From Seiridium cupressi (lineage: Eukaryota > Ascomycota > Sordariomycetes > Amphisphaeriales > Sporocadaceae), in NCBI GenBank assembly GCA_036674765.1, contig JARVKI010000040.1:297692-361691 (forward strand): DNA of 64,000 bases, given 5' to 3'. Positions 2,343-37,304 of the stretch are shown here, one piece after another. The notes under the pieces were generated by a model, which was not told where the DNA came from, made no database searches, and was given only the letters and a program-made list of their open reading frames with translations. The position numbers and the translations under genes were made by a program. How positions within the stretch are numbered: position 1 is the stretch's first letter; each line of letters begins with the position of its first letter.

Positions 2343-4537
2343 TTACTTCTTGGCTGGTTTTCCGAAGAGAAATTGTGTCATGCCACCGGACGCGGACTTG
2401 CTCGATTTCTTCTTCTTTGACGGCTCCACAGCTATGATAGTTGGTCCGCGACCGCCGCCGCCGCCACCCATCATCCCAGGGTGCATACGAGGGTCCATTG
2501 GGCGCGGTCCATGATGTTGAGGTGGTGGTGGCGGACCAGGTGTCGGCCTTCCACCCGGGCCCTGGCGACTACCCGGCATTCCCATGCCTGCGGGTCGCAG
2601 ATTAGGATGGCCGGGGAGCCCATGTGCTCCGTGTGCCCCATGTGGCCCATGTGGCACCCCCGGACGAGGCATCCCGGCTGGTGCTTGTCGGTCCATGGGC
2701 CACATTACCATCGTGATGGCCCAGTCGGGTTCAATGACTTTATCCCAGACTTGGGGGAGGATGATCTCAGAATCCGGCCCCAGCAGGTCGTAGTGGCCCG
2801 CCTGTACATGCGGCCCTATTACATCAACGTGCAAGAAGGCTTGCTTGATCAGTTCTTCCATACCCTGCCGTAGAGTTAGTCGTGAGTCATAGACGAAAGG
2901 CCGCTTCCACTTACCGTCCAAGTTTGGCAGAGATGGAAGGGGAAGCTGAACTTCCTCCCCACGGCATCCTTGAATCGGATTGGCGCCTTGTCCTTGCCCA
3001 TTGATTTTTTGTTCGCCTCCTCTGCCTTGGCTTTGGCCTCCTCCAGGGCCTTGGCTTTGAAAGCTGCCTCCTCCTCTTTCTTCTGCTCTTCGGCAGCCTT
3101 GGCTTCCTCCGCTGCTTTGCGCTCCGCCTCGATCTTATTCCGTGCTTCGATCTCGGCTTTCAATTTGGCTTCTTCTTCGAGCGTCTTCCGCCAGTCCGCC
3201 TCTTCTTTCGCCTTCTTCGCTGCCGCTGCCTCGGCTTCCTCCTTGGCTTTGATGGCTGCTTCAAGCTTCAGCTTGGCGGCGAGCTCGGCGGCAGCCGCCA
3301 CCTCAGCCTCCTTTTTTCGGCGTTCCTCATCAGCCTTCCGCTCGGCCTCGATCTGGTCCCGGGCTGCCCGCTCTGCTCTGGCAATGGCCTCAGCCTCGGC
3401 CTTTTTGCGTTCTTCAACGGCCTTTCGTTCAGCTTCAACCGCGTCTCGAGTTGCCTTCTCGGCTTCTTTTCTGGCTTCTTCGATCTCTTTCTTGGCCTTT
3501 TCCAAGGCGACCGCCCTCTCCTCAGCTCGCACCTTCTCCTCTCTGTCCCGCTCCTCCATTTTCCGGCGGAACGCGGCCTCGGCTTCCTCCCTGATCTTGG
3601 CCTCTAGCTCCTTTTGCCGCGCTTCCGCCTCCCTGGCTGCTTGGGCGGCCTTGATTTCGGCCACCTGCTTCCTCAGGGCCTCCTTCTCGGGATCTTCCTT
3701 TGGGGGTTCTGGAGCCGGTGCAGGCTGCGGCGCTGGAGTCCGGGGCTGTGCTATTTCGGTAGGGGGAGGGGGTGGCGATTGCCATGCATACTGTTGCATC
3801 CCAAGAGGAACAGGATAGTGTCCACCGCCATGCGGACCATTGAAGTACCCCGCACCACCACCACCGTACGGCATCACTTCGCCGCCCCAGCCCCGATGTT
3901 CATTGAAGAAGTTGCCGCCTCCGCCACCAGCACCAGGCGCGAAGGGGTTCGAGTAGTTGGCATAGGGCACGACTTGTTGTTGTTGACCGCCGTACGGCGC
4001 ATACCCTCCGGCATGACTTTGGGGGTAAGCTCCAGGTTGCGGATACCCGCGGCTACGGCCACCATAAGGCCCACCTGCAGGTGGGTATTGGCCGTAGCCG
4101 TAGGAATACTCTTCCGAGGAATCCAGACTGGCGGGAGCTGGGTGTTGTTGTTGTTGTTGTTGTTGAGGTGGCGCTCTGTAGGCGTAGCCTGAAGGTGGTG
4201 GTCTTTGGATGGACTGATGACGACGGGTCGGCTGTCGCCCAGCGCTTCTTGATCGGCGGAACGAATTCCCAGGACTCGACGCCGAATCCGAAGGGTCGAG
4301 CTCGCCGTCTCCTTCGTCCTGTTCGTCTGTCCAATCGTCCTCCTCCTGCGGTGACGAGCTGTAGTCTTGGCTGTCTCCTCCCTCGAAAGAGCTGGAATCG
4401 CCCGAGACACCACCGGGCCGGGAGCGCGAGCGCGAATGCGAGTGCGTGCGTATATGCAACTTTCTGAGCGCCAAGGGGTCAGTAGGCGAGAAGAATTGAA
4501 ATGGCTGTATAGGCTTTGCGAGCACTCACGTAGACAT
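2343..4537 (-). CDS. coiled-coil protein with fungal ubiquitin-like domain (ULD-type), function unknown
   Basis: Three exons, complement(2343..2864, 2915..4463, 4530..4537), closing in frame at 692 residues. The first exon is only 8 nt (ATGTCTAC); its intron (66 nt, GTGAGT...CAG) restores 'MSTKLHIRTHSHS'. The second intron is 50 nt, phase 0. Layout: Arg/Ser/His-rich N-terminus; acidic low-complexity stretch; Gly/Pro/Tyr/Gln-rich disordered segment to about 270; a long Ala/Glu/Lys coiled coil at about 275-490; a ubiquitin-like domain at about 495-580, beginning near 'IRFKDAVGRKFSFPF' and including 'WAITMVMWPMD'; and a Pro/Gly/His-rich tail with a Lys cluster. This ubiquitin-like module is widespread in filamentous fungi on otherwise disordered proteins; I know of no established role. 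An alternative start at 4525 without the first intron gives a different, less conserved-looking N-terminus. Confidence 0.8.
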
Positions 4538-7500
4538 GGGGGATAGTATCGTAGTAGAGCACCCTTCGCTCGCGACAGTCTGCTTGAGAAGGTCGGAGCA
4601 AAGGTGGCCTCGTGAAAGAAAAGAGGCGGTGGTCTATTGTGACTAGCGCCCTCCTTGTGTGTTTGGGTTGAAACAGAGACGCCCGCTATATCGTGGCAGG
4701 CAGATGTGCACTAGGGATGGCGAACCTTAAGTGTCGACTTGCGCGGGGTGATGGGCGATCGTGGGTGGTGTTGCGTCGGGTGGGTGTCTGCCGGTTTCTT
4801 GGAATCGGCCTGGCAAGAACAAATGTACGCAATTGTCGCAAGGCAAAGGCGAATGCTGTCAGGAGACTTGAGTCCGACGATGGAATTCGGGATTGGCTAG
4901 AATGTAGATTGATCAAATGACAGCTGAGGCCAATCCTAGGGCTTTAGGCGCTTGTGTAAAATGATCGCGGGGGTGTTGCTTTCTGGTGGAATGCCGCAGT
5001 GTAGGGAAGATCCTGGTTTTGCGCAAAACCCGCTTTCAGTTGGGCGCAAAAAAAGGTTGGATTGGGTAGAACGGGCGTCCCGCGGTGAGCTGACGGACGA
5101 TAGCAAAGTGGGGAGGGATATATGTAGTTAAGCAGAGATCGAATACTCGATTCGTATAGGGAGAGGGACGATCAAGTGAGGCACTGGGCCCTGCTGCTTG
5201 TCGCCTCGCGTCGGAGTCGGCAGTGTGCAGCAGCCCTATATGAGCCTCCTCTCCTCCAGCCGAAACTGAAGTTGAAGATGGGAAGGAACACAAAGAGTCG
5301 GGGGCCGGGCGGGTTTTGAAGTGACTACACTGCAATTCTAGCCTTTCCCCTTCGGCTGGCCCAGACGTAAGCAAGCGGTAGGGAGATCACTGGAGACACC
5401 AGCGGCAGCGACCTTCAGGGATGGGGGCCGAATCAACAGCGGCACTAACGCCCGCGGAGTATCGTCAGCATAATGTACGTAGTAGGTCGGTAAGCTCTAG
5501 TCAATCGATGTGTGGCTGTACTGCTGTACTGCTGTCCCGACGCATACCCAGGAGGCATGACGGAGTCGAGCGTTACACAGCCTGTCCACCGGCACCGATC
5601 TGGTCTCTTGGATTCCCCAGGGAGCGGAAGGCGACTAGCCATGCTCTCGGCAAAGTCTCGTGTACCGCCATTGTCGATTGACCCCTCCTTGGTGTTGACA
5701 ATTGGCTTGTGACCCGAACACACGCACACACATAGCGAGAGACTTTGGCATCCCCTGTCAACGTGCTACACTACTTGCATAGCACGGATCACGATCTTGT
5801 TGTGATATAACGAGGAGAGCCGGTCGCGAAACAAGAGAAACACCAACTCGTGCGGACGGGGGAGAGACTTAAACAGACATATCATACCTGGACAGGATAA
5901 AGTAGTCTCTGACTAAGTATATGGCAGGCTCAGTGATACAATTCGCTGAAGGGGTCGATCGCTGCCGTAGCTGCCTTGGGTATTGTTGTGTTGTGTGGGA
6001 GCGGGTTGATTCTTATTGGGGAATTCGACTGTGCTTTGTTTTTCTGAGGCTGAGAATGAGCGTCGCGACGTAATTCGACTGTCCAATGTGCCTTGCAAGA
6101 GGTTCAGCTGTAACTAATGAGCCTGTCTGTCAGTGGTTTTGGGCAATACTGATTCGTTCTTCTTTGTCCTCTTCTTCGACGGCCGTCCACGGGTCAGGCA
6201 GGTGACCTGACGCTATTCTCGGATTTAACTAATAAGACAAAAGCCCCTCACTAACTGGGCGATCCGGTCGACGCAGGCAGTGCGAAAGGAGGGGTCTTCA
6301 AGGAGCCTAAAAACTGGCAGTTCACCGCTCCACTGTGCCCGGGGACTGCTGGCTGGCTGTTGACTCCCGGCTTGGTTGCTAGGGCACTTGCGGCCTCTCA
6401 TCCAACGGGGAGATTGCTCTAGGCGGGCGCAGCCGAGCCAGATGCACTTACACCGAAGAAGAAGAGACGGGGCCCACCGCATCCCTCTAGTGCTGCCAGC
6501 CCGTGGTTTGACCACTTGGTCGCCCTGCAGCCAGCACTGGCCGGATGTTTTGGGTGGCCGACACAGAAAAGACCGTTGCAGTATCCTTTGGATCCTTTGG
6601 GCAAAGCTTAAGTTGTGGGCTTGGCGTTACTCACTGGAACGTGTTTCCGGAAACTCTGATCTGTCACAAAATCCGGAAGGTTTCCTACGCCAAGGTTGCG
6701 GCAATTCCGTCCGGGGTATGTGTGAAGTCTTGCTTCTCAAATACTCAAGTTGTCCGTTTTGTTTGATTGTTCAGGGGGTCTTGTGGCTAATGGACCGTCT
6801 ACCCTTCTCGTATGAACGTCTTCTCGTAGTCTGCGGGTATGTGCAATTTCGCAGCCGTAACATTGTCCTTGGATGCTGTGGAAGCGATAATATCTAGCCA
6901 ACGACTCGCGGTCCTGGGAGCAGTTCCTGATTGGGCGCAAATGCAGCGACTCGGGGGCGAAGCTTGTAGTTTTGCGTTGAACAGCCCAAAATCGTGGGGC
7001 GTCTACATCTGCTGCAAAAGTATAACAGATCAAAGCTGGCTCAATACGCTCGTTGGATGTTTGGGCATGGGAATCATGTACTAATAACAAGCGTTGGGCT
7101 CTCCTTCACCTTGACCGCAAGTCGTTTTACCTTGCGGAGAGCCAGCTGTGGCGAGCGAGCCCAAGCGGTCCATTCCGTGCCAATGCGTGCCATGTCTTGG
7201 AGGCCTGGACTGATGGACTGATCTATCGCAGGCAGAACATCGTGGTGCTGCGTCGCTCCGCTGCTGAAGTCGCGGCAGAGGGCGGTCCAGAGTCTGTCCG
7301 ACCGGGACCTTCAAGGCGGTTAGGCCCGCCTCATGTGGAACCCAATGGTTGTCAAGTTCGTGGGAATAGCCCAAAGTGCGGCATTCCTTTGCTGCCCAAA
7401 GCCATCGATAGCTGCATGCACGACACAGGGATACAGATTGGTTGCATCTTGAAGAGCCGCTTTGATCCTGATTGACTAGATTCATGCCAAACCTACCTGC

Positions 7501-22960: not shown

Positions 22961-24070
22961 CTGGATGGGCCGGACGCCAGGGCATTCGACTTGAGGGTGT
23001 TAAACCTGTTCGAGTCCCGGCACGTGGAACATGTGTTGTTGCACACCGCAATATAAAGGTAAGGAACCCCGGGTGTGCCCGAAGTCTTGTCCGATTGACC
23101 AGCAACACAGGCCGGCCAGGAAATTATCGTGGTCCCCACACAAGCTATTCTCAGTCTTCACACCGTCCCACCGAGTATCGTGGAGAGACTTCCCCCGGAA
23201 ATACCGTTCCACGGCCTCCTCGCGGCTCACCTCGCTCTCGATTCGCAGATCCAGAATACACCATGGTTCCTGATGCTACCTACCAAGTCCGATTTTGCGG
23301 CCACGACGCCTTTTATGTGGCCTGAAGAGTTGCAAGAACTTCTCCCTAAGCGTGCCCGAGATCTCCTGAAGGCACAGCAAGTCAAATTCCACTCTGAATG
23401 GAGCATGGTATCAGAAGTGTTTCCTCAGATAGATAAAGAGCTGTTTCTGTATTTCTGGTTCATCGTCAATACGAGAACGTTCTATTACGAAACACCAGAG
23501 ATGGAGAAATACAGCTGGGAGAACAGGCTAGCCCTAGTCCCAATGGCAGACTTGTTGAACCATGCAGAATCCGGCTGCCAAGTCACGTTCTCAGCCGACG
23601 GCTTTACCATCACGGCAGACCGCACGTACAGCCGCGGCGAGGAGGTCTGCATTTCATATGGAGAACATTTCAATGACTTCTTGTTGGCTGAATACGGTTT
23701 CATATTACCAAAAAACGAATGGGATCAAGTGTGCCTCGACGAGGCCATCATTCCCATGTTATTGCAAAACCAGCAAGCACCGTTGGAAGAACGAGGGGAC
23801 TTGGGAAAATTCAACTTTCACCCGCTTTCTGGAGCATGCCCGAGAACCATAGCGGCTCTAAGTCAAACCCCACGTCTTACGAATGCTCTTGATAACCAAC
23901 TCCGATGCGATCACGCATCTGCATTACGGAAAGTTCTCCAAGATTTCTTAGCCTTCACAACCAATGTGTTGGAGAGTATTGAAAGACTGGATTCTGGTAC
24001 AGTGGCCTGTGGACTGCTGATGCAGAGATGGAAGCAGATCGAGGCTATCGTATTGCAGGCACTAAAGTAG
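22936..24070 (+). CDS. SET-domain lysine methyltransferase (SETD6/LSMT-like)
   Basis: Two exons, 22936..23058 and 23111..24070 (52-nt phase-0 intron restoring 'RNIKAGQEIIVVPTQAILS'), 360 residues. SET motifs: N-terminal 'RGTCVVAHRNIKAGQEI' near 30-46, 'MADLLNHAESGCQV' near 185-198 with the conserved Asn-His, and 'YSRGEEVCISYGEHFNDFLL' near 213-232 with the catalytic-region Tyr. A helical C-terminal region like the Rubisco-LSMT substrate-binding domain follows. It probably methylates a non-histone protein using SAM. A short upstream ORF starting at 22928 overlaps the start codon out of frame. Confidence 0.85.
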
Positions 24071-25128
24071 CTACACTGGGAGTGAAATCTGGGCCAAGCA
24101 CGTGAGTCGCTGCCCAAGCCCCTTTTTCTCACATAGCACGCATCAGCTTCCGTGGAGTACCTGGTCCCAAATTGAGATATCATACTACACGGTTGCGAAC
24201 GCCAATACAATACGGCAAAGGTGGAGCCGAGTCCTAGCCTTTCCCAGATGAGACTCAATTAAGGTTTAGTCCTGGTTCGTCGATAGGATCTACTAGACAA
24301 TTCATCACCTGCCAGCTGCTACTACACAGACTTCAGACCAGTACCCGAAGATATATATCACCAAATGAAGAAGGAATACGACAGTTTTCTGATCGACAGT
24401 GGGCAAAGACATGTCCAACCCTGATCTTGACACTAGGGAAGCAATACGTGGTTTGCCACCCGTTCGTCTGCTGCGCGGACCCTGGACCAAATCAGGGGGT
24501 ATCCAGTGTGTCGGGAACGAGTGAATTGTCGAGTGGTAGGGCTGAGTGAACACAGCTCTTGGGACGTTTACGAGGATCTAGAGCACAGGTGGTGCATCTT
24601 TGAAGCAGGAATATGACGTCGGAACGAAGGATGCCATAGAATGATTTGTTCATGTCCCTCCATGTGGCATCCCAGCCGTCATGGCTATTGCTTAAGTGTG
24701 CCACCTCCACAATATTCACAATAGAGTCTTCCATGACAGGTAAACAATCCTAACCCTCCTCTTTCTTAGAAACGGCGAACAAACTATTCAGACTCTGCTC
24801 CCATTTGAAAGTCTTTCGCGCATCATTGCGGCGACTGTACTCTTGCTGCGAAGAAGGCTGTAGGTCCGGATTGGTTGACCAGTCGATTAGCTTCTGTTTC
24901 TCGGCATACTAGTTTCGACGAGTGCTGGGACGTTGCACAAGAAACTGTGCAGAGGCAGCTCTAATGCAAATCCTTGCATCTATGCTTGTTCTTTGTGGCA
25001 TATGTACCAAGTACATACGGAAAAGGCGACTAGGTATTAAAGTTCATATGTTTGATTCCCTAAATGCTAGGCACCATGATATCAATGTGGGTTTCTTATA
25101 GAGACTAGCGTACTGATACTTTCTTTAG
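24071..25128. other. intergenic with a minus-strand coding fragment at about 24751-24913
   Basis: The minus strand at about 24751-24913 reads as an intact protein-like tail ('KQKLIDWSTNPDLQPSS', 'ARKTFKWEQSLNSLF') ending at TAG, directly after a possible CTAG splice acceptor. No matching upstream exon is present. It looks like the last exon of a lost gene. Confidence 0.35.
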
Positions 25129-27712
25129 GTAAAACGCTCCGGGCTCTCATTTCTGGTGAGGATGGTGAATTGAAAGCTGCACAAGAGAAACTTCGCGAAT
25201 ATGTCAGAAAGGAGCAAAACGTCATAAAGAATGCCACGCTTGCAAATGTCATGCGTATCAGGCTCGATACCAGCGCCACACACGAGCTCGCGACTAAGGG
25301 TCTAGCCATTTCGGAACAAATTGACAACAATGTCGCTTCTATCGTTCATGATATAAGCCAAGTACTCGGTCATCTAGAGTGTAAGACTGATAATGGATAT
25401 TCTGTGTAGAGTGTGCTAATGATAACTTGCGAAGGCTAAGAAAATGCTAGTGAGCGAGAAAATGTTCTCAGGTGGCTGTCACCAGATGATTTCCGTGACA
25501 AGCAACGAAGAGCGCTTGAATGGTATGGCCAGAGGACTTGCGAGTGGCTCTTAGCCTCGGAGGTGTTCCAAGCTTGGTTGAATGGTCGTACCAATTCGAT
25601 CCTTTGGTGTCCCGGGATTCGTAAGCGCTTCTGCCCTGGTGTCTACAAGACGTCAAGACTCGTGCTCATAAGGAAAGGAAGCTGGCGCGTGGAAGACCGT
25701 TATGATGTTAGATCCCATCGTTTGATGGTATGCCGCAGAAACTAAAGATACCTCAGGTCCAGAGCTGTTACCTATGTCGAAGAGCACATTCACGGACCAT
25801 AACGCGCGATCGCTCACGTGTACTGCGATTACAAGGAACCATGCCCAGCACTTGAAATTGTACGCAGCGTGATCCACCAGCTCGTAGAACAACTCCGACC
25901 ATTGCATGCGGTGTTGAAGAGATTCCATGAAGTCCTCTCTGAAAAGAAAATGTACCCGAGTATTGATGATTTCATAACGCTAGCCAAGGGTGTTTCATAG
26001 TTGTTTGAAAGGGTGTTTGTCTTCGTCGATGCACTGGTGATTTGAGCATAGCATTGCACCGATCGGGATAGATTCGCTAACGTAACACCAGGGTGAGTGT
26101 CCAGAGAACGATAGGGAAGAAATGCTTCATATCACCAAGAGCCTGGAATCAGTTATTCGCTTGTTCATCACCTCACGCGTCAGCATCGACCTTTCTAAAG
26201 AATTTGGCAATCTGTAAAGAATCGACATCATTGCAGACCAGTCAGATATTAAGCTATGTCTGGAGGATAGAGTTGCGAAGCATCATAGGCTTCGCGATTT
26301 CACTACGCAAACCCCAAGCCTCAAACACGAAATCATTCGAATCATTCAGCAGAAGGCTGCCTGCATGTGAGTTGATCTACCCGAACAGGGCTTCTATTGC
26401 CCTGGGGCATATAAACTTCACATGTCACTTAAACTACAATCAAGGTTCCTACTGGCCCATTTACAAATGAGCCTCCTTGGGAGCCAGATCAGTGCGAGAA
26501 ATATTCGGGAGGCCTTGATAACATTGCCTCAAGGAGTGTTTGTTTTCTACGACCAAGCTCTCAAGAGGATCAGCGAACAGGAAGACAGCAACAGAGATCT
26601 AGCCAATCGTGCCCTCTCACTCATTTTCTGTGCTAAGAGGAACTTGACTATGAATGAGCTAATCCATGCCTTGAGCATCGAGCCTGGCGACAACGACTTC
26701 AGCGCAGAAAATTGCACATTGGTGCAAATCCTGCTCGGTGTCTGTGCCGGCTTGGTCAGAAAGCAAATCGGGCGGAAGCGATGTGGTGAGCGGCTTGAGA
26801 TCAGCAGCCAACAGCGGCCAGAATGAAAGAGTCCTAGTTCTTTTGGAGAACGGCGCGGATATAGACGCCATAGATACCATTGGAGGCTGTACAGCGTTAA
26901 CCATAGCAACATGGCTGGGCAACGACGCTATGGTGCAGTTGCTTGTGGAGAAGGGAGCAGATGTGAATATGCGACAAAGGAGTGGGGAGACGGCACTGCA
27001 TATTGCCGCTCGTGACGGATACCCCGACCTCGTCGAGTTGTTGGTCCGAAACGGAGCTCGAGTTGATCTGAAACTCCACGGTTGGACAGCGATGCTTCTT
27101 GCAGTAAGCAATCAGCGAGGGTGGATTCCTGACTTCTTGGTGCACCAAGGAGCAAATGTAAGCACGACGGATTATCATGGTCGAAGTGCTTTACACTGGT
27201 CTTCCAAGTTCGGGTGGGAGGCATTCGCTCGTCTTCTCTCGGTCAGAGGAGCCCAGGTTGATGCGGTTAACCGATGGGGAAGGACGCCCCTGATGTGGGC
27301 CGTCTATGGCAAACAATATGCAATAGTCGAAATCTTGCTAGGTCACGGTGCCGATATAACGCTGGGAATGCACGAGGGTTACACCCCATTGCATCTCGCA
27401 GCTGATAACGGCGATGAAAGAATGATTGATATCCTCTTGAGCCGAGGAGCCCCGGTTGGGGCGCGTGCACAGAACGAGTGGACAGCGTACCATATTGCTA
27501 ATGTCATGACTTTCAACGGTGTCATGACACGGTTAGCCATCGCTGGAGCCGTCAAAAGCGAGGCCTCCGAGCTGCGCGCGGCACGCAATGCAGATGAACA
27601 TCAGGGCGACGAATGGTATATTGATTTTGGTAGAGACGATATTGCCAGGACCTGGGCTCAGCGGTCACAGCAGGCGTCAAGCGACGACGGTACTCTAGAC
27701 GTTGCAGTATGA
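25129..27712 (+). pseudogene. NACHT-ankyrin NLR (STAND receptor), decayed
   Basis: Pieces in order, in shifting frames. Linker helix region from 25129 ('GEDGELKAAQEKLREYV'). Pre-NACHT block about 25450-25615 ('VLRWLSPDDFRDKQRRALEW', 'WLLASEVFQAWL', 'LWCPGI'). The Walker A that should follow is destroyed. NACHT remainder about 25805-26040 ('FERVFVFVDAL' is the Walker B strand), then 'RLFITSRVSIDLS'. Winged-helix region 26420-26760 ('IREALITLPQGVFVFYDQAL', 'LTMNELIHALSIEPGD'). Finally an open ankyrin stretch to 27712 with about eight repeats ('GETALHIAARDGYPDLVELL', 'GYTPLHLAADNGDERMIDIL'). Many stops and frameshifts, and a probable deletion between winged helix and ankyrins. Intact relatives are fungal self/non-self or immune receptors. 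The ankyrin part alone could still be translated. Confidence 0.85.
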
Positions 27713-29217: not shown

Positions 29218-29853
29218 TTAGAATTTAATCATATTCGCAACCTCCGCTCCATTGAATGTGCCCTCTGCGACTATGTTGTTCTGCTTTGCCTGGTCGCTTG
29301 CCGTGTTATACGATATTTCCCCTTCAATCTTCCCGGATTGTACTGTAATCATGTTCTTTTGCTGGGCTGCATGCATCGCTTTATTATTGTCTGATGTACA
29401 AGAAGCATCAGCTATGTCAGCCAGGTCTGTCACGCTCACGAGAGATTTGTTGGCCGCCACTCACGTATCTTGGCGTTGCTCTGCCCCTGCTTCGGTCCGT
29501 TCGGACTGTCGCGCGTTTCGAGATATACTTGCCCTCCCTTGGGAAAGTACTTCCGCATCGGCTCATTGCCCTGCAACTCTGCCTGTGGTGCATCTTGATT
29601 TAGCCCGTTTATGCTGACTAAGACAATCTGCACATCTGGACCAAAGCCGCGCTGGGCTCGAATCTTGTCGTAGACATCGCCCACGGTCTCGCTGGTCTTG
29701 TAGGGGAGAATGTTCTCCATTTGACTACTGTTCCCTAGCAATGTTAGCTCATGGCCTGGGCTGTGGGTAATCTACTGTAACACAGGTGCGGCGGTGTTAT
29801 ATTCCGACGATTAGTGGGCAGGGCTCACTGTTAACGATCCGCAGTTCTGGCAT
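29218..29853 (-). CDS. ubiquitin-like-fold protein with C-terminal doubled amyloid-like motif (new architecture candidate)
   Basis: Three exons, complement(29218..29390, 29465..29734, 29829..29853), introns 74 and 94 nt, both phase 1, closing in frame at 155 residues. First exon: 'MPELRIVN'. Residues 1-82 follow the order of a ubiquitin fold: strand 'MPELRIVN', strand 'NILPYKTS', helix 'ETVGDVYDKIRAQRG' (compare the ubiquitin TIENVKAKI helix), strand 'VQIVLVSINGLNQ', and last strand 'GGQVYLETR'. There is no terminal Gly-Gly. After a short Gly/Pro/Gln linker, residues 99-155 are Asn/Gln/Ala/Gly-rich and hold two copies of N-x-A-x-[HD]-x-A-x-Q-x-N (101-111 and 127-137, 26 residues apart). Fold assignment is by eye. 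Exon 1 is inferred from splice sites; an ATG at 29720 would give a shorter protein. Closest logic known to me is a HET-s-type effector with an unfamiliar N-terminal domain. Confidence 0.6.
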
Positions 29854-30774
29854 GACGAGCGTATACGTGGTCGAGTGCTCTTCTGTTTAACAGTCACGTT
29901 GGACAAAACGCCTAGCTGGCGCAGCGTAGCTAACGTAGGCGGATTTCGAGATATATACCTAGACAAGGCTCTGCGGCCAAGGCAGCAGGACTAAAGCAGT
30001 CAACCCGTCTCCCGTCACATCGGTCCGCTCACTATCGCGGGCTTTATGACGGACTCATCATTATGCGTACAGATACTCGGGCATTGGAGCAGGGGGTATG
30101 CCTCGTCATGTGGAAGTACAAATATGCAATTGGTTCGGCTAAGGTCGAGTGCATAATTACACCACCTATCAGCCAGAGGAGTCGTCACAAAGAGCAGGCT
30201 GGCTTAGCAAGTAATGGAGGTGGGGATGCTCTGTCCCAGAACAAACAACTAACTAGCACCAAACCATGCCGCTGTCAGAAACGAGGCTATGCTCTGCTCT
30301 AGCTTGGGAAGATGTTCTATATGTCACGATGCACGCAGTCTTGAGCATAATGAGCGTGTAGCGTATTGGTTTATCACGTCTGCGACCGGGTCTATTTCGA
30401 AGCCATAAGAAGCACAGTTACTACTCTCCACAGAAAATGTAGGATCTGTGTAGTTCCTAAAGATGCTCACATATCTGAAAGCATCCAACACTATGTAGTT
30501 GAGAATGTTAGCTAGAACCACAGCAGAGAAACACCCGCAGTCCACTCAACAGTTCATGAACCCGATTCCCGAGATGCAATCTATATCATGCCATGCCATC
30601 ATCAATCGTCATTTTCGAAAAGTTGCAGTAAGTGTGTAGAGACTAGAGCGGGAAGGCACTGAACGGTTTCCAGTACAAGGATCTGTGTTGCCTCTGAGAT
30701 CTGAATGCACTCGCAGTCGTGTCTCTTCATTGCATAATTATTCCACGTAGGTGCTCGGTCGAAAGAAAGGCGAG
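29854..30774. other. intergenic, about 920 bp
   Basis: Between the ubiquitin-like gene and the 3' end of the SesA-like gene, both on the minus strand. Probably promoter plus terminator. Open frames at 30063-30302 (+) and 30324-30545 (-) have no recognisable features. Confidence 0.4.
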
Positions 30775-31516
30775 CTACGCCTCGAGGAAAATGCTTTGTA
30801 GTAGCTGCATGGACCCAGGTCCACACAGGATCAGGTTGCTCTGTCTACTGTTGTCCAGCGCTGCGTTTTCGGTCACCGATGCAGTGATCCGCATCTTGAC
30901 ATCCTCCAGGCCGGCTATTCCATTGACTTGAGCCGCTTCGCGCTCTGTGTAGTTGAGATCCACTGTCATGATTGACGAGGATTCAAAACTTTCCTTGCGA
31001 GCCCCCAAGTCGATTCTTTGGATTCCTTCCGAGATACCTCCAGACTTCTCGATATGTATAATACTCATCCGGATCAAGAGTTCGACTTTTGCCTTTTCAA
31101 GCCGCAAAAGCACGTTGTTCAGTCTCGACTCGTCTCGAGTTCTGCGCCTTAGAGCGTGTAGGCTCTGCCGTAACAGACTTTGGCGGTTCAAGGTAGCCAT
31201 GTCCATGAGAATTTTCTGGAGCTCCAACGTGATGGAACATATGTATTCGATCTGGTTGTGCATGGCGCGCGTATGCAGCTCCGTTGAGCTCTGAATATCG
31301 CGCAATATGTTTTGGAGGTTGGTAGACTGCACCGTCAGATCGTGGAGCAACTTGGGCGCCGTGCTGATAGTCTGCCGTACCAAATCGATCTGCTGCCATA
31401 AACTCATTGCCTGGCCGAGCAGCTGGGCTATTACTGCTGCCGAACCGAGAGCCTCCTGATGGTGAAAGTTCGTTAGCCTGCAGTATTACAAGGTGAGGGG
31501 AACCGGACCCCACCAT
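30775..31516 (-). CDS. SesA-like (STAND-associated N-terminal domain) helical protein with one amyloid-like motif
   Basis: Proposed exons complement(30775..31455, 31514..31516): a 3-nt first exon (ATG only) joined over a 58-nt intron with a good CTAAC branch point to GAG GCT CTC, giving 'MEALGSAAVIAQLLGQA' and 227 residues. This start matches the typical fungal SesA/NACHT-N-terminal helix. The donor (GTGGGG) is weak; the fallback is ATG at 31407 (211 residues). Residues 1-140 are all-helical with heptads ('LVRQTISTAPKLLHDLTVQS', 'RRRTRDESRLNNVLLRLEKA'). Residues 198-208 carry the same spaced pattern as the ubiquitin-like protein, here 'NAALDNSRQSN'. In fungi this domain type occurs at the N-terminus of NLRs or as stand-alone effectors next to them. 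Role inferred only. Confidence 0.6.
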
Positions 31517-33336
31517 CGTATTTCAAGAGGTGTGTGTGTATTCCAGTGTGAGAAGTTGAGCGATACCCGTAGTGTTTGCCTTAATATGAAAGATGCGAGA
31601 AAGAACTAGGAAGCCGACTATTTTGGTGCGAGGGGGGGGGGGGAAATTTCACTTATGTAGTAGTAATACCCAATAAGCTGCAGTGGCGAGGTTACATGAA
31701 AGGGCTGATGCAGATAAAAGAAAAAAGTCTTGTTTTCCCGTGCCATTCGTTACGCTGACTTTGGGTAGGAACAGAGACAAAATGAGCCCAATTTACAGCG
31801 TGAACTCTCGAGGTCCATCAAAATACAGGAATTTGTTATTCGGGCGGACTTATCTGGAGAATTTCTGCAAATCAGAAGGTTGGACCGCTAGGATTCGCTG
31901 CCCTGCATTTCTCTTGGTTTTACCAGACAACTGGCGAGTTACGTGCGTCCCCGCGTACGTCCATAAAGGTCGATGTTCAACAAGACCTAGTCACATGACT
32001 GGAGGTGCCTTCCGAGCCAAAAAGCCACATCTTCAAGATGCTCCTTGGTGGCGGTATGGTTTTGTCGATTCGGCTCGTAACCGCTTTGACATCAGAATAG
32101 AAAGCGAACGTCGTAATTCACCTCTCTGATGCTATGAAGCGTGACGTGCCAGATCTCTGTTCAATATTCGCTTATGCTGGATTTTTGACTCGGGTCTGGA
32201 AAGAATGCAGTGTATATCTCAAGGCTACCGAGACAAGGTTATGTTTCTTTTGATCATGAGAACGAGTTGACAGCGACAGGGATTGCAGCTGAAGCATTCT
32301 ATGTTCCTTTGGTCCAGCCACACAGGATCTTGCGACACTGGACATATACAAGTTCCAGTGCCTTTCTACCGTTGGAAATAATCTCGCGTTCATACGGCAC
32401 ATCAACGTGCGCTATTGACATCCCCGGGGACCGACGTGGCCACATATATCAGAGTAAAGTTGCGCCCCAGTATCAATATCATCATTGGAAGACGAACACG
32501 CTGCTTGAGGGAAAGAACTGACAGATCTGACTCGCCGGATTGGTGTCAGTGCCTCGTCCCGCAGGACTCCTCCAAAGTCCTACAATGAGGAGGGATGTAT
32601 GCGAATACCTAAGTGGGTAGACGAACTATCTCTCCTACCTGTTCAACATTGGCCAGATGGAGGGTGGATGGACATTTGGGTAGCAATTTGGCACGGAGAT
32701 CTTATACAAGCGACAGAAAATATTTGCAACCTCTACGTTCAACCTGCATGGCGTGCTCGGCTTCTTTTCCATCTTCTGGAGGAATGGCTGCAGAGACAGC
32801 TCAGCTTGCAGCAGAACCGTAAGGAGATGCGCATCAAGGTGCAGCATGGGTTACGCCATCCAATGGCCTCCCTCTTATCACATCAAATATTGGATCTTGA
32901 CCACACCACATATGGTGAGTCTGGGCTACAGATGCAAACCTCAATGGACCGCGGGTCTCGACTGGATAATGTCCTGCAAGGTGTGAGAGGTCTTTGGCCC
33001 CACGAGCTCATAGTGTGCATTGTCAAAGCATTCTGATAGGGTACCAGAGGAGGGCCCTATGAGGGTGTTGTGGCAATCCGAGCAGTGCAAACTTTTCACA
33101 GGAATCTTCGCCGCCACAAGGCAGGAGACCCCAAATTGCTTCGGGTAGTTTTGATCGAAACGTGTAGTGGGGGTTCCTGTCTCCATATGAGGGCGAGGCA
33201 CGCGTCCAGAATGATCTCGGTGTTTTCTGGAGATCCCATGATAGTTCACTCGTGGATCGCTACCCTGTGTCGATAGAGAAAGTTGTTGTTTAGTACCCTT
33301 ACCATTGCTCTAGGCTATTCGGAATCAGGCAGCATC
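31517..33336. other. mostly non-coding, 1.8 kb
   Basis: Contains a G12 run (31632-31643) and one protein-like ORF (32599-33036, listed separately). Other open frames (31683-32129, 32210-32521) show no family features. Confidence 0.4.
32599..33036 (+). CDS. hypothetical ORF, 145 aa
   Basis: ATG-initiated frame with Trp- and Leu-rich, protein-like sequence ('HWPDGGWMDIWVAIWHGDLI', 'RARLLFHLLEEWLQRQLSLQ'). A GTGAGT at about 32911 could be a splice donor, so the true 3' end may differ. No family recognised. It may be a fragment of a larger lost gene in this decayed region. Confidence 0.3.
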   Translation: MRIPKWVDELSLLPVQHWPDGGWMDIWVAIWHGDLIQATENICNLYVQPAWRARLLFHLLEEWLQRQLSLQQNRKEMRIKVQHGLRHPMASLLSHQILDLDHTTYGESGLQMQTSMDRGSRLDNVLQGVRGLWPHELIVCIVKAF

Positions 33337-35789
33337 ATGGGCAAGATATTTTCAAAACCAGTGAGCAGTGTAGCACCTGCACAACAAGCTTCAGGAAACC
33401 ATAGTACACCGGCGATGTTGACAGAGCCTTCTATACAGGGTGATGCGCCTTTCGAGGCAACTCTGGACCGACAAGTTGCGGACCAACATCGCAATAGGAT
33501 GCTCGACAACATAGAGCCACGCCGCCCAGCATCAGGACACCATCTCGAAGTAATGCCGAGAAACTCGCCATTCGATGAGCATGCACAGGATGCGAAGACA
33601 TGGGCCAGATCTGGCGACAGCCCAGTCACTCCGAAACTCAATACAAAAGGGGCAAGTTCAACAGACTCTTGACTTGTGTTTTTCAGCGGGGTTTCATGTT
33701 CATTCTGACTTGCGTTTCAGTCCCAAGGAGGCTATAATTCGCGCTTCTCGCTCAACTCGACACCTTGTGAGTTTCACCCCGACACTCGAAGGAAAGTATT
33801 CCGAAGCAGCTGGTTTGGAGAGAAGCGAGCAGTTCAAGTTGTTTGTGAAGATCTCTGCCAGATCCTCCAGCGAGCTGCGACCGCTCTTCCATGGGGTGAA
33901 GAAAATGAGAAACTATTTTCTCCTTCCAGCTGGATCACAGAGCCATTCGAGGTGATCGTCCATAACAGAAGCGAGATAGTGAAGCACCACTCTGAGCTCA
34001 AAAATGGGGATGCCAAGAAGCATCTTGGATGGTTTTTAGAGCGCTTAGGAGCTCACCAGCCTGGTTTGTGGTAGAAGCAAGACGAAATATTGTCAGGGAG
34101 CTGTCGGCAGGTCCTGTTCGAGCATCTCTGGATCCTCTATCCTCCAGGCAGCACAGTTTTCAGCATCGATGATGGCGCGTGGCGGGCATATATTATCGAA
34201 AGGTCCGAAACTGTCATATCTGAGAATGCGGCAGTCCTGCAGATTCATGCCTGTTACCTCGATTTTGACTGGACTGGCCGGCGCTTGCTACCACATAGAA
34301 CCATGGTTGAGGTGACATCTTACACGTCAGAGCGGAAGATGAGCGCTTTAAAGCTGAAGCCGGAATGGTACATTGAACAAACCACTCCACTCATTGTCGC
34401 AAACCTGATTCAGCGAGGCAATGAGTACTTCGGTTTACGCGGCGAACCACACTACAGGGAATACGAGGGGGATGCCTGGCCAAAGACGTCACACGATGTA
34501 ACAAGGACTCTTGAATTGTTATTGCATGCAACTCCCTTGCTGATGATTATTTAGTCCAAAGCCAGGGTCATCGTGGACTACTCAACGAGCAGCAAGTATA
34601 TTGCCACTGGTGATACACCAAGCAATCGAGACGGCATGTCTTCGTGTTCCGTGTGTATTGGTGAGTCTCTCGGCATGTTTTCGTACTCGGGACACGCTGA
34701 TGAGGACACTTACATTTGTGTCAACGGCGTATCGCATTCATCCCACTTGTCAGAGGCATCTCACGAGCTTCATACTGGCGAAAAGGCACTGCTCTTCTGT
34801 CCGCCACGACTGTGGGCCTTCTCGTTGAAGTATAAGACCTGGAGATCTGTATCACATGATGACTTGAGCGTGGTCGAATCACAAAACACATCTTTTGAGC
34901 AGGACTTGTGCATGAAGCTAAGTCGGAAGCAGTCTCTCAAGCAAATCGTGTCTGGCTACATAAAGGACACGGAGGATGTCAAGCTGATCGGCAGTAAAGA
35001 GACATTCGGACGGAAGGGCCGGGGTCTAAATATCCTACTCAGTGGTAGCTCCGGGACCGGGAAGACGTGGGCAGCAGGTACGTGTGTATTGCGGTCAGAG
35101 CGCTGCTTGATGTTTCTATGCTTTCTGTTCTCTAACGGTTGACAGAATGTCTCTCGGAGAAGTTTGATGTCCCCCTATACTCAATGACTTGTGGCGACCT
35201 TGGGGTTAACCCCGGTGTGTTGGATCAGAAGCTACAAGAAACCTTCACACGCGCCAAAAACTGGAACTCAATGGTCCTCCTGGATGATGCTGACATATAT
35301 GTCTATGAAAGGGACGTATATAACCTGGAGCGCAACGCCTTGCTGCCGATCTTTCTTAGGCACCTGGAATATTCAGATTGCCTTACCTTCATCAGCGTGT
35401 CTCGCATTGGAACTGTCGATCCAGCGGTTGTGACCCGCATCCACGTCGGGGTACCATTCCCTAACTTTGACTTTGGTACTCAGCAGAAAATCTGGCACCG
35501 GGTCATTGAACGTCTCCCTCATGATTACGTGGAGAGGGATGAGATGCAGGACTTCATCACACATCAGCTAGGAGAGCTTGACAGCGGCAGGTATAGAGAG
35601 ATGAACGGAAGACAAATTAGGAACTGCATCGATGTTGCCCTCATTCTCGCTCGAAATGAGGGTTCTAGCAAAATGCAGCATCGCCATGTTGAGAGGGTAT
35701 TGGAGCTTGGGAAAGATTTCAAGGACCACGTCTTGCATGTGGCGACCGAATCGACAGAATTCAAGGCACGAAACCTTTTCATCGACTAA
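33337..35789 (+). pseudogene. AAA+ ATPase (fungal DUF7025-AAA type), interrupted by in-frame stops
   Basis: The N-terminal frame from ATG 33337 begins 'MGKIFSKP', a good N-myristoylation consensus (Gly2, Ser6), and is disordered to about 33660. A splice around 33655-33719 probably leads to the frame with 'WITEPFEVIVHNRSEI'. The DUF7025-like region follows ('FEHLWILYPPGSTVFSI', 'LIQRGNEYFGLRGEPHYREY'), then AAA with Walker A 'LLSGSSGTGKTWAAE' rebuilt over a clean intron (35077-35145), Walker B 'MVLLDDADIYVYER', and a C-terminal lid to TAA 35787-35789. TAG codons at 34072-34074 and 34552-34554 lie in frame inside conserved blocks. Everything 3' of the second stop (34573 onward) is undamaged, so loss is recent, or a minor intron removes the stop. 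Such ATPases are often found beside fungal NLR genes; function is unknown. Confidence 0.7.
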
Positions 35790-36219
35790 GGTATCAGTCT
35801 TTCTTAGTAGCGCGACGAAGTAACGAGACATATTTCATTATTGAAGTAATAGACCCCTTTTGCACTGTTTTGATGGTCAATTGCGTTTGAAGATAACCTC
35901 GAGTGACTTCCTGGCTCTACCTTGTGAACTCCCATAGAAAAATATAACCAATGTTCTAGCACCCCACTCGACTCTTGAACCTATTAACCTAGGAGCGGAC
36001 AAGGTATCCTGGAAACCATCCAAAATTGCGTTCAGCTTCCTCATTCGGCTCGTTCAGCGAACTGCATCTTGGGTCAGGAATCTCTCAACAGTATTGGTAT
36101 CGTAACTGGTCAAACCACCAGTATTTCTCTTTGTCGCTTTAGATACTTTGCGGAGTATGTACTTGAGATGCCACCATCATCTGCCAGTCAATCTTCAGGA
36201 GCTGGCTGACCATGTAGGG
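35790..36219. other. convergent intergenic, 430 bp
   Basis: 3' flanks of the AAA remnant and of the NACHT-like gene. Nothing else recognised. Confidence 0.5.
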
Positions 36220-37304
36220 TCAATATGGCAGTCGTCGTTGAGGTGGGTAATTGAGTTTGATGTGACCGATACCAGGGCCGAAATCCCGCAAATATGTTTT
36301 CGTCCTATCTGACCTACTAGTCACCAATAGCTTCACCGGAACTGATTTATTTTGACAAATTTCAAGAAAAGTTTGAAGGTTGACGGTGAAGTCTCCAAAC
36401 TTAGAATTTATGGATCTGTCGTGAATGGAGTCAACGTTGTCGAGCAGGACATAAAGGGTTTTGATGCCGGCCGCGGTGACACAACTGTAGAATAAACTCC
36501 ACAACTCAGAAACTCCAGTCGGTCTTTTGTGGAAATTTTCATGAGTTTGTCGGAGCGCACCACAATCGTGGTGAGCTTGCAAGAAATCGTGACAAGCTCG
36601 GCGAAGCTGAGTAAGGAAATCTTGTACTACTAAGTCTTGTCTCCATGATCCTGCGCGAAGCCGTTCATCGCAAAAGCATGTTACCACAGCGCTGGGCCTT
36701 TGGCTTGCGTCACTATTGACATTAGAATGAGCAATGCGACCTATCGCCTCCAACGTGAAATCCGTTGTCCAGTCTGATCCGGATTTGGTAACGATGCATT
36801 GATCTAATAATAAGACCGCACTTTCCTTGGATTTGATCCAGCCGGAGAGGATCTGGGCATGTGTGTTGTTGAGTATGTCCATTACCTGTTTGGCAGATCT
36901 GGAGGTTGGATAACGAGCGAGGCAGCTTTTTAGATCCACGTCGAAGTAGCAAGCCTCGGAGAAGTAGCCGTCTTTCAGGAAACAAGGCACAGAGTTCGAA
37001 CTGCTAACCTTCCCTTGGGATATTAAGCTATGTCGATCCACAACTTGGTCGTATAAGAATGGATATGCTGATCTATCGTCAGTCGTGCATTCTAGATTTG
37101 TTAGCCTTTGTTGGCAAGCTGTGACGTACCAGCAGGCCCCAATTCTTTGACTGAAGGACGATCTCTTGTAAACATTTCCAAAGCAACATCCGGTGCAAAA
37201 AACGGCCAGGGACGACAGAACTTCAAATGGAAGCTCTGGTTGAATTGATGAGCGCCGTTGTCGGCATAGTTGCCACTGTTCGAATTGTGAGAGTTCGGGG
37301 CCAT
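36220..37304 (-). CDS. NACHT-like P-loop-related (STAND) protein with N-terminal amyloid-like motif
   Basis: Two exons, complement(36220..37067, 37130..37304), 62-nt phase-1 intron with CTAAC/CTGAC branch points, 340 residues. The extreme N-terminus (1-27) is Asn/Ser/Gly-rich and contains 'NYADNGAHQFN' (12-22), the same spaced motif found in the two neighbouring genes. The rest resembles a NACHT core: 'ESAVLLLDQCIV' at the place of the first nucleotide-binding strand but without a Gly-Lys-Thr P-loop, 'AVVTCFCDERL', then 'TLYVLLDNVDSI' as Walker B and 'VKLLVTSRSD' as the sensor strand. No ankyrin, WD or TPR repeats follow, so it is short for a receptor. It could be a truncated NLR or a member of the fungal P-loop-less NACHT-like family. 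Confidence 0.65.

Follow-up and report, generated by a model that had tools for sequence, protein, structure and literature searches.

In a 64-kb stretch of the genome of the ascomycete Seiridium cupressi (64,000 nucleotides of contig JARVKI010000040.1, positions 297,692 to 361,691; in the following called the window), three genes, all on the minus strand and spanning about 8 kb, code for a ubiquitin-like protein (UBL), a protein labelled SesA-like and a NACHT-like protein. Together these hold five copies of a short motif, two at the C-terminus of UBL, two at the C-terminus of the SesA-like protein and one at the extreme N-terminus of the NACHT-like protein. We consider it probable, if well short of certain, that the three genes form one cassette which works like the amyloid-signalling systems built from NOD-like receptors (NLRs) and their effectors, as a variant with a probably new motif.

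The motif comprises about 20 residues with the core N-x-[AT]-x-x-x-[AS]-x-Q-x-N, usually followed by a hydrophobic pair. The tail copies are here called r1 and r2, the N-terminal copy r0:

29353-29385, minus strand: UBL r1, NKAMHAAQQKN (residues 101-111), pattern match, recovered by the profile of SesA-like r1+r2
29275-29307, minus strand: UBL r2, NTASDQAKQNN (residues 127-137), pattern match, 23.5 bits with the profile of SesA-like r2
30922-30954, minus strand: SesA-like r1, NYTEREAAQVN (residues 169-179), found by the looser pattern and the profiles, missed in the preliminary description of this DNA
30835-30867, minus strand: SesA-like r2, NAALDNSRQSN (residues 198-208), pattern match, also found by the profiles
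37239-37271, minus strand: NACHT-like r0, NYADNGAHQFN (residues 12-22), pattern match, top-ranked of 329 positions under the 20-column profile of SesA-like r1+r2

When the gene models were rebuilt, the four copies of the preliminary description were recovered at N101 and N127 (UBL), N198 (SesA-like) and N12 (NACHT-like). The single copy assigned there to the SesA-like protein has to be corrected to two, the second one being at 169-179. The comparison drawn with HET-S/NWD2 holds for copy number and position alike, with two C-terminal copies per effector and one at the extreme N-terminus of the receptor-like protein. From N to N, the copies are 29 residues apart in the SesA-like protein and 26 in UBL.

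Frequency of the motif

The strict pattern proposed in the preliminary description has four matches in the six reading frames of the window, all within these three genes, and none in 200 windows simulated by an order-2 Markov model. Taken alone this count is circular, because the pattern was fitted to these very segments. With the looser pattern N-x-[AT]-xxx-[ASG]-x-Q-x-N, the four copies are joined by SesA-like 169-179 and by nothing else in the window, and a simulated window holds on average 0.07 matches (at most 1). Without any pattern, the best ungapped 15-residue triple across the three tails is the motif in register, and none of 1000 shuffles equalled it. Between UBL and the SesA-like protein, 7 of 2000 shuffles were as good as the observed pair, and 132 of 2000 reached the internal repeat of UBL. 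In the SesA-like protein the single sequence did not reveal the internal repeat (637 of 2000 shuffles as good).

The genome, 45.4 Mb in 228 contigs, provided further controls. These were the best 40 of 78 genomic matches to the NPHP3_N family, each with about 4-5 kb upstream (211,639 bases in six frames). Neither the strict nor the looser pattern was found in these 40 other NLR-type loci. Second copies of the three genes were not found in this genome either; the only, weak match (E 0.2, 44% identity over 52 residues) was to the NACHT-like protein.

Conservation in the Sporocadaceae

For the SesA-like and NACHT-like proteins, the closest relatives of named origin come from Truncatella angustata and Neopestalotiopsis (Sporocadaceae, Amphisphaeriales), and the named members of the NACHT-like family P0001-P0004 belong to the Sporocadaceae. 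Nine SesA-like sequences were aligned, the window protein included and a duplicate row left out, and both repeats align without gaps. The consensus is N-[YHR]-[TS]-[ED]-x-x-A-x-Q-x-[NS]-[GA]-[IV] for r1 and N-x-A-[LM]-x-x-S-[RS]-Q-[SN]-N-L-I-L for r2. Among six segments r2 is the best conserved, with a mean column identity of 0.872 compared to 0.811 for the helical domain, 0.766 for r1 and 0.614 for the linker preceding r1; a single 10-residue stretch of the helical domain exceeds it (0.963). This conservation of r2 is high although the tail is predicted to be disordered. In the NACHT-like family the N-terminal copy is closely kept in P0001-P0003, and residues 1-24 are more conserved than residues 25-60 in all three relatives compared. 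The preliminary description had named loss of the motif in homologues with conserved flanking domains among the observations that would speak against it; the motif is kept in the relatives of both proteins, and the 40 other NLR-type loci have no match to its patterns.

Profile searches between the three proteins

Profiles were run against a background of the window and the 40 NLR-type loci in six frames (546,440 positions), of which the 12 best positions were listed; in this six-frame scan the first three residues of UBL r1 come from the intron. With the profile of SesA-like r1+r2 the best non-self matches are UBL r2 (17.8 bits) and UBL r1 (14.3 bits), while the best background position reaches 9.6 bits. 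A profile of r2 only gives UBL r2 its 23.5 bits against 12.9 for the best background position, and places UBL r1 (10.9 bits) under three background matches. A chance pattern was rejected for UBL and the SesA-like protein, since the r1+r2 profile puts the UBL copies first.

Within single proteins, the 20-column profile of SesA-like r1+r2 ranks the extreme N-terminal site first among 321-338 positions in four of four NACHT-like proteins, and the site of P0001 reaches 13.3 bits against 9.6 bits for the best of the 546,440 background positions. With 15 columns the site still ranks first in P0001 and P0003. A profile made from three foreign NACHT-like N-termini finds SesA-like r2 as the best non-self match of all background positions (14.0 bits), with a small margin over the background (13.3 bits), followed by UBL r1 with 11.0 and SesA-like r1 with 10.2 bits. 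The clearest within-protein evidence is the reverse test, in which four NACHT-like N-termini and no SesA-like sequence make up the profile. Here r2 ranks first or second in nine of nine SesA-like proteins and r1 ranks first in all nine once r2 is set aside, both with 20 and with 15 columns. The reverse test strengthens the NACHT-like arm of the cassette, and by it a chance pattern was rejected for the NACHT-like protein too, though the single-pair shuffles are weak. A profile of UBL only ranks r2 first in nine of nine SesA-like proteins and r1 between first and fourth. Under profiles of r2 only, the rank of r1 among the 133-193 positions of the nine proteins lies between 1 and 3 with 20 columns and between 1 and 7 with 15. 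These nine are not nine independent tests, because they are related and the window protein is among them.

Several results weigh against such a cassette. Using the window copies alone, the SesA-NACHT pair is marginal (150 of 2000 shuffles as good) and the UBL-NACHT pair does no better than shuffles (1135 of 2000). A combined SesA-like and UBL profile leaves the NACHT-like site outside the 12 best of 546,440 positions, and with the 15-column r1+r2 profile the site ranks only second in the window protein and fourth in P0004. The N-terminal copy of P0004 is loose (N-C-A-R-D-N-G-T-L-I-N, without Q); depending on the profile, 40 to 431 of 1000 shuffles of this N-terminus reach its score, and conservation is lower in its residues 1-24 (5/22) than in residues 136-348 (86/212). 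As to r1, it fits the looser pattern in five of nine SesA-like sequences, with S in place of [AT] in P0007 and S in place of the last N in P0011-P0013. A profile of r1 only scores the background (11.2 bits) above UBL r1 (8.8 bits) and leaves SesA-like r2 and UBL r2 outside the 12 best positions. A profile trained on UBL finds SesA-like r2 with a narrow lead only (14.8 against 14.0 bits for the background). The gene for an AAA ATPase lies on the opposite strand within the 4.7 kb that separate the SesA-like and NACHT-like genes. In Neopestalotiopsis sp. 37M the relatives of these two genes, E8E14_009829 and E8E14_009880, appear to be on the same contig of 317,017 bases, which speaks for the cassette; with tags 51 apart, however, this does not establish close linkage. 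For UBL, the protein search gave seven candidate homologues, none at E <= 1, and that it conservedly belongs to the cassette is not shown for that reason.

Part of this would be explained if the true tail motif were common to the SesA-like protein and UBL only, and the N/S/A-rich N-terminus of the NACHT-like protein resembled it by chance. The weak pairwise shuffles of the NACHT-like protein and the scores of P0004, which are barely above zero, fit such a view. We regard it as quite improbable, however, in face of the first rank of the extreme N-terminus in all four NACHT-like proteins under the 20-column profile, the reverse profile, which brings both tail repeats to the top in all nine SesA-like proteins, and the distance between P0001 and the best background position.

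Domains of the three proteins

The preliminary description had taken the NACHT-like protein for a NACHT/STAND receptor (STAND, signal transduction ATPase with numerous domains). What stands of this is a partial match to NPHP3_N, covering only profile positions 46-164 of 164 (E 6.5e-5, 23.6 bits compared with a cut-off of 24.8); the family matches four of the five aligned NACHT-like members. A Walker B is visible as LLDNVD or ILDNID, and a stretch W-T-T-D-F-x-L-E-x-I-G-R is invariant in the five sequences. The receptor assignment as given is not supported: upstream of the NPHP3_N match no GK[ST] of a Walker A was found in the five sequences, which speaks against full STAND membership, and no repeat family that could serve as sensor matches the NACHT-like protein. 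A STAND ATPase has sensor repeats besides its Walker A and Walker B, and because neither Walker A nor such repeats were found here, we class the cassette as a variant of these systems short of full membership. What characterizes these systems in general, the same motif at the N-terminus of an NLR and at the C-terminus of effectors from clustered genes, is present, with weak single-pair shuffles for the NACHT-like arm. The short architecture recurs in P0001, P0003 and P0004 (340, 355 and 357 residues), again without visible Walker A, while P0002 (271 residues) seems to be the same Truncatella gene under another gene model. Judged by its sequence, the protein is a conserved NACHT-derived protein, probably without nucleotide hydrolysis.

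The label SesA-like is not supported in its original sense. Searching nine members against Pfam gave 13 weak and unrelated families (the best being T2SSF, E 0.0048) and neither a SesA nor a HeLo family among them, and hhalign of the family against SesA-domain and HeLo proteins encoded in this genome gave a probability of 0.1 on a scale of 100. The AlphaFold model has helices over model residues 3-158, and in fold comparison it resembles only common helical bundles of an unspecific type; HeLo and MLKL entries do not appear in that comparison, which carries no weight as evidence. We treat the protein here as a predicted bundle of helices in which no homology to SesA was detected; the label is kept as a name only. 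In the tail the blocks have pLDDT (predicted local distance difference test) values of 25-44, and two strands, 191-196 and 206-211, are predicted with very low confidence.

These faint strands are also what one might see if the tails were a homotypic interaction module of a non-amyloid kind by which the three proteins come together in a complex, and sequence alone cannot separate an amyloid from another homotypic contact. We hold this to be unlikely, as copy number, position and gene neighbourhood match those of amyloid signalling motifs.

For UBL, modelling exon 2 alone yielded strands and a helix in the order of ubiquitin. The fold matches shown for the model are of the ubiquitin type with low confidence, none with a significant E-value, and the best PDB sequence match is SRP54 (E 0.84), followed by a ubiquitin variant (E 1). 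Of the earlier designation as ubiquitin-like, the type of fold is retained as plausible but weak, on the basis of the model. Ubiquitin-clan Crinkler domains occur in NLR N-termini (PMC9815663). The literature searched gave no case of a ubiquitin-like protein that ends in an amyloid motif.

Comparison with known systems

Published signatures were scanned in 15 sequences, P0001-P0013, UBL of the window and residues 1-58 of the NACHT-like protein. In the HET-s layout two effector tail copies face one N-terminal copy in the NLR (PMC4518210, PMC3321046). Like HET-S/NWD2 and HRAM1-5, the cassette combines an effector that has a helical domain and two motif copies in its tail with a neighbouring NLR-type protein whose extreme N-terminus holds a single copy (PMC4518210, PMC3321046). 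It differs from HET-S/NWD2 in that its NLR-like partner is without visible Walker A and repeats, and in that the second effector is ubiquitin-like. The HRAM unit has 21 residues with hydrophobic positions 3, 6, 8 and 14 and G17 (numbering of PMC5485727). No 21-mer within the repeat regions of the cassette meets this spacing, with A, C, Y and W counted as hydrophobic; eight compatible 21-mers exist in the 15 sequences, seven just upstream of the SesA-like repeats and one in the nucleoside-triphosphatase part of P0003. The PF11558 profile does not match any of the three cassette proteins up to E 10, and the motif alignment has no match to PDB sequences up to E 10.

The same genome seems to hold an ordinary pair of the HET-S/NWD2 type (positions 3115-7271 of locus L019 on contig C228). 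On contig C228 (199138-199323) a HeLo-type protein with a PF11558 tail stands beside an ankyrin NLR, which has one TAG inside its NPHP3_N match; the N-terminus of this NLR seems by eye to carry the matching single copy. Since PF11558 finds the tail on C228, the standard profile works in this genome, and it does not see the cassette motif.

The sigma locus of Nectria haematococca (SESA, SESB, HET-eN) unites one NLR with two effectors (PMC3321046, PMC5485727), and its motif is about 40 residues long with three submotifs, A being GxGxQFNxx and B GGTQNINT (PMC3321046, PMC5485727). Likewise, the cassette combines a single NLR-type protein with two different effectors sharing a motif in a cluster, and Q-x-N follows small residues. 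This similarity raises the question whether we are dealing with a far-diverged motif of the sigma type and an altered sigma triad of SesA, second effector and NLR instead of a new family. In some relatives r1 reads G-T-A-D-Q-V-N, and r0 contains N-G-A-H-Q-F-N, both resembling submotif A with G replaced. On the other hand GxGxQFN, GSGxQF and GGTQN occur in none of the 15 sequences, the NACHT_sigma profile PF17106 has no match in the three cassette proteins up to E 10, and the cassette has two copies, 26 or 29 residues apart, each with one Q-centred unit in place of three submotifs. The partner is UBL and not a lipase, and the helical domain is not recognisable as SesA. Altogether a sigma origin appears rather unlikely, though of the alternatives to an amyloid cassette with its own motif we take none more seriously. 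NACHT_sigma gave no match genome-wide either, which proves nothing, as the controls were silent too.

In the PP system (HELLP, SBP, PNT1) one NLR is also found with two effectors, the motif is NxGxQxGxN, and there is a single copy per effector (PMC5485727, PMC9815663). The cassette shares with it the two effectors per NLR and the Q-centred motif, but has two copies per effector, and NxGxQxGxN is found in none of the 15 sequences; GxQxG occurs once, in P0003, outside the motif. Recently found NLR-linked motifs are GDQN and PUASM (PMC12261475, PMC9815663). GDQN of Fusarium oxysporum is paired with a SesA-domain protein (PMC12261475), and its signature NxxxGxQYxxxGxGDQNxVSxxxxQxN is absent from the 15 sequences, as is FxGxGxQxxGxGxF of PUASM (PMC9815663). 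Going by these signatures, the motif fits none of the published ones tested and is probably new. It could be among those motifs of PMC9815663 that are given as logos (NLR34 and others), as only text signatures set it apart.

Gene models and genomic neighbourhood

Rebuilding the genes on the minus strand of the window gave these models:

29218-29853, minus strand: UBL gene, 155 residues; exons 29853-29829, 29734-29465 and 29390-29218, introns of 94 and 74 nucleotides
30775-31516, minus strand: SesA-like gene (helical bundle and tail), 227 residues; exon 1 31516-31514, intron of 58 nucleotides, exon 2 31455-30775
36220-37304, minus strand: NACHT-like gene; exon 1 37304-37130, exon 2 from 37091 or 37067 to 36220

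Exon 1 of the SesA-like gene is a putative exon of one codon, ATG; the relatives P0011-P0013 start with MD[AG]LSSVAV. In the NACHT-like gene the acceptor is uncertain: an intron of 38 nucleotides, which is short, leads to 348 residues, whereas the acceptor 24 nucleotides downstream, read by eye, gives an intron of 62 nucleotides and 340 residues, the length of P0001. Exon 1, which carries the motif, is unaffected. An unspliced reading of 451 residues is disfavoured by P0001-P0003, two of which come from T. angustata and all of which share the N-terminus of the spliced model; codon preference is of little use here (-0.046 for the alternative 5' stretch, upstream DNA included, against 0.008). 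Scores of codon preference, trained on 18 open reading frames, rate the predicted frame as the best of six in UBL exons 2 and 3, SesA-like exon 2 and both NACHT-like exons, with a small margin in the latter, and as second best in UBL exon 1 (25 nucleotides).

The AAA ATPase gene between the SesA-like and NACHT-like genes (33277-35789, plus strand) is of a fungal type, with AAA_lid_13 (E 3.7e-10) and a GTGKT loop; in the six-frame scan of the window it has no match to the motif pattern. Adjoining the UBL gene are remains of an ankyrin NLR (25080-27712, plus strand), apparently degraded, with an NPHP3_N match covering profile positions 2-30 only at 25536-25619, an open ankyrin reading frame at 26675-27712 and short broken frames between them. 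Further away a SET-domain protein is encoded (23099-24070, plus strand, E 2.3e-5).

With an apparently broken NLR at 25.1-27.7 kb, a NACHT-like protein lacking visible Walker A and repeats and a UBL without homologues, one might think of a decaying locus, in which at least one gene is a pseudogene and the motif a relic. This we believe to be very improbable: P0001, P0003 and P0004 share the short architecture of the NACHT-like protein, r2 of the SesA-like protein is well conserved, and in each of the five larger exons the predicted frame outscores the other five, if by little in the NACHT-like ones.

Proposed function and significance

By analogy to the known systems, we infer cross-beta templating, release of an effector and a second output via UBL for the cassette. 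Upon assembly of the NACHT-like protein, its N-terminal copies would stack as a cross-beta seed, which would template the two-copy tails of both partners. The helical-bundle protein may then become clustered or released, and would probably act on membranes as do HeLo and HELLP proteins, while the ubiquitin-like protein could be recruited to the same fibre as a further effector or as an adaptor. As neither a Walker A nor ligand-binding repeats are seen, the NACHT-like protein may relay a signal from another receptor instead of sensing a ligand by nucleotide switching. In its boldest form, this would be a new motif family, so far known from the Sporocadaceae, in which a NACHT-derived protein deprived of its nucleotide switch seeds two tails simultaneously, those of a helical effector of the membrane type and of UBL, coupling a prion-like fold to a signal of the ubiquitin type; as a whole this appears doubtful to us.

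The question of templating is directly testable, since the peptides are short and easily made. A receptor-like partner without Walker A would raise the question whether nucleotide switching is needed at all to seed such a fold, and a ubiquitin-like effector, if true, would be a new output. Amyloid signalling by fungal NLRs is known for only a few motif families and a limited set of effector domains. A motif belonging to none of these families, if it proves true, would mean that profile searches show less than the full variety of this code.

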